A stretch of DNA of 64,000 nt. Source: Trichodesmium sp. MAG_R02 (GTDB lineage Bacteria > Cyanobacteriota > Cyanobacteriia > Cyanobacteriales > Microcoleaceae). Below the pieces are notes generated by a model. That model searched no databases. It saw only the letters and a list, made by a program, of their open reading frames with translations, and was not told the DNA's origin. The stretch lies in contig JAKQYE010000001.1 of NCBI GenBank assembly GCA_023356605.1, positions 1-64,000 of the forward strand, written 5' to 3'. How positions within the stretch are numbered: the first letter of the stretch is position 1; the number at the start of each line of letters is the position of its first letter. Of the stretch, positions 45,892-49,517 are shown in pieces. The translations under genes were made by a program, and so were the position numbers.

Positions 45892-47703
45892 ATGACTCTA
45901 AGAATTGAAATGACTCAATGTTTAAATCCTGACTGTTTACAAGTTAACCAACCACAAACAAAATTCTGTACTAGCTGTGGTGAAAGATTACTACTAAAAG
46001 AACGTTATCGCCCTCTAAAAATTATCGGACAAGGAGGTTTTGGCAGGACTTTTCAAGCTGTAGACGAAGATAAACCTTCAAAGCCTTTTTGTGTAATTAA
46101 ACAATTTTTTCCTCAAGCACAAGGAACTAAAACTTTGGAAAAAGCTGCGGAATTATTTGCTCAAGAAGCTGAACGTTTAGATGGTTTAGGTAGGCATCCA
46201 CAAATTCCAGAACTTTTCGCATATTTTACTCAAAATAATCGGCAATATTTAGTACAAGAATTTATTGATGGGCAAAACTTAAAACAGGAACTAGAAAAGT
46301 CAGTTGCTTTTAATGAAAATCAAATATTGGAATTATTAAAAAGTTTATTGCCAGTTTTAGAATTTATTCATTCCCAACAAATTATTCACAGAGATATTAA
46401 ACCAGAAAATATTATTAGGAGAAGGGAAGATAATCAATTAGTATTAGTAGATTTTGGAGCAGCTAAATATGCCACAATGACCGCTTTGGCAAGAACGGGA
46501 ACGGTTATTGGTTCTGCCGGATATGTGGCACCAGAACAATCAGTAGGAAGAGCAAGTTTTGCAAGTGATATTTATAGTCTAGGTGTGAGTTGTATTTATT
46601 TATTGACTCAAGTAGAACCTTTTGATTTGTTTGATGTAAGTGAAAATGATTGGGTATGGCGAGACTATTTGCCCTCAAGTGTAAGTAATGAATTAGGAGA
46701 AATCTTAGATAAAATGATTATTGGTGCAACGAAGAAAAGATTTAAAAATGCAGTAGAGATTTTATCTATTCTTCAGCCAACTCTTCAAAGACAAAAACCT
46801 ACTTTTCAGTCACCCATATCTTTAGTATCAAAATATAAAGGGGATAAACCAATATCTCAATCATCAACAAAAGAATCAGAGAAAGGGGAATTATTTACTT
46901 TTGAAGTTATAAAAGTAAATGATTTTTGTTTTATTATCAATCGGACTCAGGGGAGTGCTAGACAAATAATAGAAAATTTAGGTAATGAAATTAGATTAGA
47001 AATGGTTTATATTCCTGGAGGAAGTTTTGTTATGGGTTCTCCAGAAACAGAAGTAGGAAGAAATGATAGAGAAGGTCCACAACAGAAAGTAACTCTCAAC
47101 CATTTTTATATGAGTAAATATCCAATAACTCAACAACAATACCAAGCAATGATGGGTAAAAATCCTTCACATTTTAAAGGAAAAAATCGCCCTGTAGAAA
47201 ATGTAAGTTGGAATGATGCGGTAGAATTCTGTAAAAGACTATCTAAGAAAATAGGTATAAGATGTAGTTTGCCAAGTGAGAGTCAGTGGGAATATGCTTG
47301 TCGCGCCGGGACAACTACTCCTTTCTATTTTGGAGAAACCATAGGAACTGATTTAGTGAACCACAATGGTAGCTGTCCTTATGCTGATGCTCCAACAGAA
47401 GAAAGTAGAGGAGAAACGACAGATGTAGGAATTTTTCCACCAAATGCTTTTGGTTTATATGATATGCATGGAAATGTGCGGGAGTGGTGTGCGGATGAAT
47501 GGCATCAGAACTATGATGGTGCCCCTACAGATGGCAGTGTTTGGCTAGATGGGAATAAAGAACGTTCACCGCTGCGGGGCGGTTCTTGGGCCAACGGTCC
47601 TATTGATTGCCGCTCTGCGATTCGCTTCAGCTATTTTGGGCGCGACGACCTCTACAACTCTTCTGGTTTTCGTGTTGTCTGCGATGGCGGGAGAACTCTT
47701 TGA
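45892..47703 (+). CDS. Ser/Thr kinase with C-terminal FGE/C-type-lectin-like domain, putative DGR variable protein
   Basis: Domains in order are an N-terminal zinc ribbon (CLNPDC, FCTSCG), a protein kinase (IIGQGGFGRTF, IHRDIKPENII, DFGAAKY, APEQ; about 40-300), a Ser/Lys-rich linker, and a formylglycine-generating-enzyme-like domain (VYIPGGSFVMGSPETE, about 376-391, and GLYDMHGNVREW). The final 40 residues, RGGSW to GFRVV, are the variable region of a DGR-type target. Two ATGs open the gene within an 18-bp direct repeat (AAGAATTGAAATGACTC twice). Homologues start MTQCLNPDC, so 45910 is the likelier start. It was probably never an FGE enzyme, because these kinase-fused versions act as ligand-binding displays. 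Confidence 0.9.
   Translation: MTLRIEMTQCLNPDCLQVNQPQTKFCTSCGERLLLKERYRPLKIIGQGGFGRTFQAVDEDKPSKPFCVIKQFFPQAQGTKTLEKAAELFAQEAERLDGLGRHPQIPELFAYFTQNNRQYLVQEFIDGQNLKQELEKSVAFNENQILELLKSLLPVLEFIHSQQIIHRDIKPENIIRRREDNQLVLVDFGAAKYATMTALARTGTVIGSAGYVAPEQSVGRASFASDIYSLGVSCIYLLTQVEPFDLFDVSENDWVWRDYLPSSVSNELGEILDKMIIGATKKRFKNAVEILSILQPTLQRQKPTFQSPISLVSKYKGDKPISQSSTKESEKGELFTFEVIKVNDFCFIINRTQGSARQIIENLGNEIRLEMVYIPGGSFVMGSPETEVGRNDREGPQQKVTLNHFYMSKYPITQQQYQAMMGKNPSHFKGKNRPVENVSWNDAVEFCKRLSKKIGIRCSLPSESQWEYACRAGTTTPFYFGETIGTDLVNHNGSCPYADAPTEESRGETTDVGIFPPNAFGLYDMHGNVREWCADEWHQNYDGAPTDGSVWLDGNKERSPLRGGSWANGPIDCRSAIRFSYFGRDDLYNSSGFRVVCDGGRTL
47575..47697 (+). other. Putative DGR variable repeat (VR)
   Basis: The 3' end of the kinase/FGE gene is sharply adenine-poor: in 47581-47690 I count 13 A in 110 bases, while upstream codons are A-rich. 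Between TGG (47587-47589) and GGT (47665-47667), codons such as GCC, GGT, ATT, GAT, TTC, AGC, TAT, TTT, GAC, CTC and TAC all fit derivation from AAC or AAT by changes at adenines only. The flanking RGGSW and GFRVV are the conserved frame of DGR lectin-like targets. Confidence 0.7.
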
Positions 47704-47790
47704 CCCTTTTCTCTTTTCCCCTTTTACCCTTTACCCTGTGTTTCTTTTTCCTCTTTTGAGTCCCGCTTTAGCGGGTCGAATTTTTTTTTC
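47703..47790 (+). terminator. C/T-rich tract and CCCGC/GCGGG hairpin after the VR
   Basis: After the stop codon a pyrimidine-rich tract (CCCTTTTCTCTTTTCCCC and similar) leads to CCCGCTTTAGCGGG at about 47762-47775, then TCGAA and a run of nine T. This is a plausible intrinsic terminator. Hairpins downstream of a VR are also known in DGRs to aid retargeting; which role applies here is open. Confidence 0.6.
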
Positions 47791-48170
47791 ATAACTATGT
47801 AGTATGTTTGTAATACGTAATTTGGCTAATCGAATTAGACACAATTTATGAGCTAAAATCCAGATTGAATATTATTTCTTTTTGTGATTTTATTATTCCT
47901 AAATTGATCAAATATTATTCCTTATCATTGACTAATAACCTTTGCTTATTGAACAATAATTTTTTCTATAAAAAACTCAAATATAAGAGGTCTTATCAAA
48001 TAAAAAAAACTACTTTATAATGGTGATAAATCTGAATAATTATTATTTTATTTAGTTAAGCTATATCTTGGCTTTTATGCTTTGAATATGGCTATATTTG
48101 TTAGCCAATCAACTATCAGAACTTTGCTGATAAATTATTAGTTATTAATTATTGACAGGAGATATCTAAT
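47791..48170. other. Intergenic upstream of the CYP120-like gene
   Basis: AT-rich stretch with no gene or repeat recognised. A GACAGGAG just before the ATG at 48171 (48156-48163) is a plausible ribosome site. Confidence 0.5.
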
Positions 48171-49517
48171 ATGTTTTTTTTTGCTGGACTTGAAAAAGAA
48201 AATACTCATCCTTTACCCCCTGGTAGTTTTGGACTACCATTAATTGGTGAGACGATTGATTTTCTGAGAGATCGTAATTTTTCTCAGCGACGAGAACAAA
48301 AATACGGTAATATTTTCAAAACTAATATATTAGGTCGCCCTACAGTGGTAATGACAGGCCCTGAAGCGAACCGCTTTATTCTTGACACTCATTTTGACCA
48401 TTTTTCCTGGCATGACGGTTGGCCGAAAAATTTTAAAGAACTTTTAGGCAAATCTCTTTTCTTGCAAGAAGGAGAAGAACATCAAAGAAACCGTCGATTA
48501 TTAATGCCTGCTTTTCATGGACAAGCTTTGAGGAGTTATTTTGCCATTATGGTTGATACGATCAATCGTTATTTGGTGAAATGGTCTCAGATGAAATATC
48601 TGACTTTACTACCAGAAATGAAACAGATGACCTTTGAACTTGCAAGTATATTGCTTTTAGGTAGTAAACCAGGAACAAAAACTACGCTTTTGTCTCAAAA
48701 ATTTAGCAAACTCACTGCAGGTTTATTTAGTCTACCCATTAGGCTACCTTTTACTACTTATACTTTAGCGTTAAAAGCTAGGGATTTTTTATTGAATTAT
48801 ATAGAAGAAGAAATCAGAGAAAGAGAAAAAAATCCGGCTCAAGATGCACTCAGTTTATTAATCAAAACTAAAGATAAAGAAGGGGATAGTCTAAGTCTGG
48901 AAGAAATAAAAGTACAAGCATTATTAATGCTATTTGCTGGACATGAAACTACAACATCAATGCTTACCTCTTTATGTATGGCATTGGCACAAAATCCTGA
49001 TATTTTGGCACAAACAAAAGCCGAGCAAGAAAAATTAAAACAGCAGGGAAAGCTAAGTAATGAGCAACTCAAACAAATACCTTATTTAGAGCAAGTCCTC
49101 AAAGAAGTAGAAAGATTATATCCTCCTATTGGTGGAGGTTTTCGAGGTGTGGTCAAACCTTTTACCTACAACGGTTACTATGTGCCCCAAGGTTGGCAAG
49201 CATTATATCGCATTGAAAGAACTCACCAAGATCAAAGAGTTTATACTAATCCTTTAAAGTTCGACCCAGAACGTTTTCATCCAAAAAGAGCTGAAGATAA
49301 GAAGATGGATTATAGTTTAGTTGGTTTTGGCGGAGGTTCCAGATTTTGTTTGGGTTATGCTTTTGCCCAAATGGAAATGAAGATTTTTGCTTCTCTACTA
49401 TTACGTAATTATCAGTGGAAATTAGAACCAAATCAAGATTTATCCCTTGATGCTCTTCCCTCTTTACATCCTCGTTCCGGTTTAAAAATACTGATGATAA
49501 AAAATTCAGATGGGTGA
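48171..49517 (+). CDS. Cytochrome P450, CYP120-like
   Basis: This is a heme-thiolate monooxygenase. CYP120 of Synechocystis hydroxylates retinoids, which makes a retinoid or carotenoid fragment a possible substrate; this is inference. The 448 residues show LPPGSFGLPLIGETIDFL (about 14-31), the I-helix AGHETTTSM (about 259-267, acid-alcohol pair intact), the K-helix EVLKEVERLYPP and the heme loop FGGGSRFCLGYAFAQ (about 384-398) with the Cys ligand. It has no transmembrane anchor. The next genes, 430 bp downstream, are the XDH-like pair. Confidence 0.93.
   Translation: MFFFAGLEKENTHPLPPGSFGLPLIGETIDFLRDRNFSQRREQKYGNIFKTNILGRPTVVMTGPEANRFILDTHFDHFSWHDGWPKNFKELLGKSLFLQEGEEHQRNRRLLMPAFHGQALRSYFAIMVDTINRYLVKWSQMKYLTLLPEMKQMTFELASILLLGSKPGTKTTLLSQKFSKLTAGLFSLPIRLPFTTYTLALKARDFLLNYIEEEIREREKNPAQDALSLLIKTKDKEGDSLSLEEIKVQALLMLFAGHETTTSMLTSLCMALAQNPDILAQTKAEQEKLKQQGKLSNEQLKQIPYLEQVLKEVERLYPPIGGGFRGVVKPFTYNGYYVPQGWQALYRIERTHQDQRVYTNPLKFDPERFHPKRAEDKKMDYSLVGFGGGSRFCLGYAFAQMEMKIFASLLLRNYQWKLEPNQDLSLDALPSLHPRSGLKILMIKNSDG

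Follow-up and report, generated by a model that had tools for sequence, protein, structure and literature searches.

A probable remote variable repeat of a diversity-generating retroelement at the 3′ end of a Trichodesmium kinase gene

The kinase gene and its 3′ end

The window analysed here is a stretch of 64,000 nucleotides from Trichodesmium sp. MAG_R02 (contig JAKQYE010000001.1, positions 1 to 64,000), and the gene, its domains and the elements at its 3′ end lie on the forward strand. The open reading frame at 45892..47703 encodes a protein of 603 amino acids, in which Pfam recognises a Ser/Thr protein kinase domain (46006..46746; PF00069, residues 39-285, E 2e-39) followed by an FGE-sulfatase domain of the C-type-lectin (CLec) fold (46999..47679; PF03781, residues 370-596, E 1e-55). 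Upstream of the gene, between 45180 and 45420, there is a tandem array with a unit of approximately 60 bp (GTGAACTGGTTCTGGCTCATCG..GAACTAGAT).

The structure model of the FGE domain finds its fold matches in PvdO, TvpA (2y3c, TM 0.76) and FGEs; it is of moderate confidence, with the loop that carries the variable residues (residues 206-222) at a pLDDT below 50, and the variable residues were therefore not mapped from it. Together with the PF03781 assignment, the match to TvpA and to FGEs provides the C-type-lectin fold expected of a target of a diversity-generating retroelement (DGR). TvpA of Treponema denticola, which we take to be a DGR variable protein, is a solved structure of the same FGE/CLec fold, with just 25% identity to the window protein over the match. 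The entry 5nxl was considered as a further DGR protein and rejected, as it is an FGE.

The C-terminal end of the FGE domain coincides with a variable repeat (VR) of 132 bp, including the stop codon (47575..47706), delimited by comparison of 11 full-length copies in the genome. Variation among these copies defines a hypervariable core at 47591..47662, comprising 27 adenine-site columns in 18 codons. The conserved 3′ part of the repeat, 47664..47706 (idx 88-131), shows a mean identity of 94% between copies with little variation at the A-sites, and its position suggests a role similar to that of an initiation-of-mutagenic-homing (IMH) segment. The preliminary description of this DNA, made from the letters alone, had drawn attention to the scarcity of adenine in this part of the gene, and its count of 13 A in the 110 bases at 47581-47690 is exact; the average of the open reading frame is 38 per 110 (34% A), and only 0.25% of the 110-mers across the window contain 13 or fewer. 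The motifs RGGSW (codons 562-566) and GFRVV (codons 592-596) frame the A-poor stretch, as had also been pointed out.

The pyrimidine tract and hairpin reported downstream are likewise present. The tract (Y-tract, 47704..47757) is common to all 11 VRs in the alignment; the hairpin, CCCGC-TTTA-GCGGG with a stem of 5 bp, spans 47762..47775 and is succeeded by a T-run at 47781-47789. The same order of conserved Y-tract, GC hairpin and T-run occurs 3′ of 11 out of 11 VRs. The letters of the stem change from locus to locus, while the pairing is mostly kept (e.g., CTCGCC/GGCGAG and CCGCC/GGCGG). This hairpin may act as a terminator, as a cruciform for DGR target recognition, or as both. The approximately 490 bp that follow the stop codon (47707-48198) are 83-85% identical, over most of their length, to several paralogous VR loci, and the shared stretch ends close to where the P450 gene downstream begins. 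This suggests that the duplicated unit includes 47707-48198.

Adenine-directed variation in the repeat family

The genome searched is a Trichodesmium draft of 6.77 Mb in 537 contigs, 92% complete. Besides the window VR, it contains 10 full-length copies at other loci, on separate contigs, with 82-91% identity to the window VR, and degenerate or shortened copies are present in addition. Positions 1-32 of contig C509 hold the last part of another VR, truncated at the contig edge and equipped with Y-tract and hairpin; since these two elements follow, C509:1-32 is probably not a template. A partial match at the edge of C468 lies within an unrelated gene and was set aside as a chance match.

Among the 11 copies, identity amounts to 97% at fixed sites and to 44% at the 27 variable core columns, while the coding DNA just upstream of the VRs is 64-88% identical. 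Codon positions 1 and 2 account for 27 of 30 variable columns in the VR, compared with 75 of 150 in the upstream coding DNA (p = 3e-5); all 27 strongly variable VR columns fall at these two positions. Each of the 27 has A in at least one copy, as against 79 of 109 strongly variable columns in the upstream coding region. The family thus shows what is expected of a DGR VR: it closes a coding gene, and nearly all of its variation sits at template adenines and at codon positions 1 and 2. On this variation pattern, as read from the sequence, the locus is filed as a putative DGR target and not as a complete DGR.

Part of the earlier codon-level description needs revision. It counted at least a dozen variable codons, all ending in C or T and reachable from AAC or AAT. 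The variable codons number 18; against the inferred template, approximately 10 of them derive from AAC or AAT, the others originating from GAC, CAC, TAT, ATT, ACT and AGG, and codon 583 (GGG) ends in G.

The window VR agrees with the inferred template at 17 of 17 A-sites, a figure that is partly circular, as this template was built partly from the VRs themselves. For this reason, templates from other cyanobacteria were used. Five of them (from Nostoc sp. UHCC 0926 plasmid pn2, Cyanomargarita, Calothrix, Desmonostoc and Okeania) were aligned to the inferred template. Each sits immediately 3′ of a DGR reverse transcriptase (RT) and has A at 25-28 out of 29 sites. With the Nostoc template as reference, the variable columns of the present genome occupy 26 of 32 A sites and 4 of 56 non-A sites (p = 1e-12), and the Cyanomargarita and Calothrix templates agree with this register.

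For orthologous loci, the genomes compared with that of the window (G000) were Trichodesmium erythraeum GBRTRLIN201 (G001), Trichodesmium MAG_R04 (G005) and Trichodesmium MAG_R03 (G006). The window locus has no clear orthologue in these relatives, and the comparison was made on other members of the family. In pairs with at least one flank 92-98% identical (in several of them just one flank is well conserved), 15-21 of 29 A-sites differ, against 1-6 of the 103 other VR sites. The flanks of C505 and T. erythraeum C216 are 95-97% identical, and between the two VRs the letters differ at 21/29 A-sites and at 3/103 of the remaining sites; the corresponding values are 17/29 and 6/103 for C401 and C187, 20/29 and 1/103 for C283 and G006.C57, and 16/29 and 3/103 for G005.C443 and G006.C459. 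Three further pairs give 17/29 and 5/103, 15/29 and 2/103, and 18/29 and 5/103. In a degenerate copy taken as control, differences are found at 0 of 19 A-sites and 2 of 80 other sites. Such A-site divergence, confined to the VR at loci with a near-identical flank, indicates that the VRs were still being rewritten once the species had separated.

The non-A sequence, in turn, is concerted within each genome. At idx 38, C is found in 10 out of 10 strict copies of the window genome and T in 6 out of 6 of T. erythraeum; at idx 15, all window-genome copies have G and those of T. erythraeum have A, T or C; at idx 45, the window genome has A or T, and G is fixed in the T. erythraeum copies compared. 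These genome-specific letters match the prediction of rewriting from a genome-specific template, with idx 15 and idx 45 variable in the genome whose template would have A there and fixed in the other. As a separate observation, G000:C283 (762-893) and G006:C310 (L165) carry the same VR allele over 86 bp between loci whose downstream flanks are just 96% identical, possibly as a result of transfer, conversion or mixed assembly.

Retroelement machinery in Trichodesmium

As the preliminary description had noted for its vicinity, the gene has no RT nearby: none is encoded on the 94-kb contig to which the window belongs. Elsewhere in the same genome, contig C282 holds a DGR cassette in the order VR, avd, RT, template, in which the VR belongs to an FGE target with a kinase ORF just upstream. 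Its Avd is a 114-aa ORF with 61% identity to the Nostoc Avd, as expected of a DGR accessory protein of this type. The RT (L047, 1711-2786) shares 63% identity with the DGR RT of Nostoc and has a YVDD motif; as assembled, it contains a frameshift near its beginning and a gap of Ns. These are the sole DGR RT and the sole DGR template found in this draft. Neither Y-tract nor hairpin is seen 3′ of the C282 template.

A template for the window VR family is predicted to contain CGGGGCGGTTCTTGG(G/A)ACAACAATCCTAATAATTGCCGCTCTGCGATTCGCAACAACTATAATAGGCGCGACGACCACAACAACAATACTGG. The template search proposed at the outset was answered in part: the draft, 92% complete and in 537 contigs, yielded the RT, Avd and template of another VR on C282, and no A-rich, near-identical template for the window VR family. 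The preliminary description had named the lack of such a template as a refutation, and taken literally this applies to the draft. Nor did the cognate template appear in six other genomes of the genus (seven searched in all), and a scan of viral sequences with the template pattern gave no match. We tentatively attribute this to fragmented short-read assembly. The simplest reading is that the cognate template shares most of its k-mers with a dozen VRs and for that reason drops out of such assemblies; contigs do break within VRs, as in C509 and G006:C310.

Origin of the variation and relation to known systems

Taken together, the dispersed copies, the register of the independent templates, the A-site divergence of orthologues and the C282 cassette support the earlier proposals that the gene ends in a DGR variable repeat and that it is diversified in trans by an RT and template located elsewhere. 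Very probably, then, a DGR of the cyanobacterial type has 47575-47706 as one of its remote VRs. By analogy with characterised DGRs, from which the adenine mutagenesis is taken, a DGR RT/Avd complex would reverse-transcribe a template-repeat RNA made elsewhere in the genome and introduce errors into the cDNA at template adenines. This cDNA would then take the place of the VR that ends the kinase gene and at least 10 other FGE/CLec-fold genes, so that amino acids change on the surface predicted to bind the ligand, beside the kinase domain. Both the cognate template and present-day rewriting are inferred; the C282 RT and Avd could act on another template in trans.

The sole template at hand is that of C282, which makes it a natural candidate for rewriting the window VR directly. 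This is highly improbable, since it shows 41 non-A differences to the window VR, compared with 6 (next to 14 A-site differences) to its own VR. Ordinary gene conversion among paralogues, combined with diversifying selection on the binding surface and no DGR, would be favoured by the many paralogous FGE-fold genes of the genome, yet it is scarcely tenable: the variation is restricted to the A positions of independent DGR templates (p about 1e-12), conversion would not keep adjacent non-A sites at 97% while saturating the A-sites, and each genome has its own non-A letters, shared by its dispersed loci.

A more serious alternative, though still quite unlikely, is that the repeats are fossil targets: a DGR once rewrote them, and they are now frozen alleles of a lineage whose template and RT are lost or decayed. 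It would account for the cognate template being found in none of the seven Trichodesmium genomes, for the disrupted frames of the recovered RTs, and for the allele that G000.C283 and G006.C310 share over 86 bp with flanks at 96% identity. What argues against it is that in several pairs of orthologues, with a flank 92-98% identical, the majority of the A-sites differ, so that the system was active after the species split, and that marine T. erythraeum VRs are hypervariable in Tara metagenomes (PMC8867640). Rather unlikely, too, is a variant in which this largest Trichodesmium VR family either depends on a stand-alone template without RT, served in trans by a cassette with a different template, or has outlived its cassette; if so, the stable unit would be the target set and not the retroelement.

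The preferred reading, diversification in trans by a remote DGR, is in line with published systems, as the preliminary description had anticipated for cyanobacteria such as Trichodesmium. Descriptions from cyanobacteria, T. erythraeum among them, cover multiple DGRs, remote targets and variable proteins of the kinase-CLec type (Vallota-Eastman et al. 2020, PMC7517822); like the window gene, these proteins combine an N-terminal Ser/Thr kinase with a C-terminal FGE/CLec domain, a VR at the 3′ end and paralogues far from the RT. Species and loci differ, and the window draft is without a template for its VR family. T. erythraeum IMS101 has the DGRs Tery_1035 and Tery_1728, with two RTs and 18 loci of TR/VR homology (Paul and Eren 2022, PMC8867640); the likeness is drawn here at the level of the genus. 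The Nostoc pn2 DGR (L045) comprises two FGE-fold targets, avd, RT and a template 3′ of the RT whose A-sites are in the register of the window VR; unlike the window system, it has its targets in cis to the RT, and no kinase domain was seen on them. Adenine mutation has been reported in cultures of Nostoc punctiforme (PMC12691664).

Such systems being already known in Trichodesmium, the window VR family is a well-supported addition: a remote DGR family with multiple targets, well resolved, from a nitrogen fixer of global importance. Its kinase-CLec protein would be a diversified, tunable sensor kinase or conflict sensor, as the cited authors also propose. With the clean orthologue pairs, ordinary metagenomes can be used to test how fast, and for what purpose, the kinase sensors diversify.

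RT genes were also compared across the genus. The DGR RT genes recovered from Trichodesmium assemblies (L047, L105, L106) contain frameshifts or an in-frame stop; in T. erythraeum GBRTRLIN201, neither of the two DGR RTs has an uninterrupted frame. Two RTs with 30% identity to the DGR RT, on G006:C103 (L271) and G004:C648 (L272), were rejected as DGR RTs. The latter overlaps a Cas1-like gene (recognised as Cas1 by eye) and is probably a CRISPR-associated RT; the former is a close relative, cut by the contig edge. The T. erythraeum DGR on G001:C237 (L105) adjoins AAA ATPase and FGE-domain genes, a neighbourhood similar to that of the ternary conflict systems described in PMC10907252.
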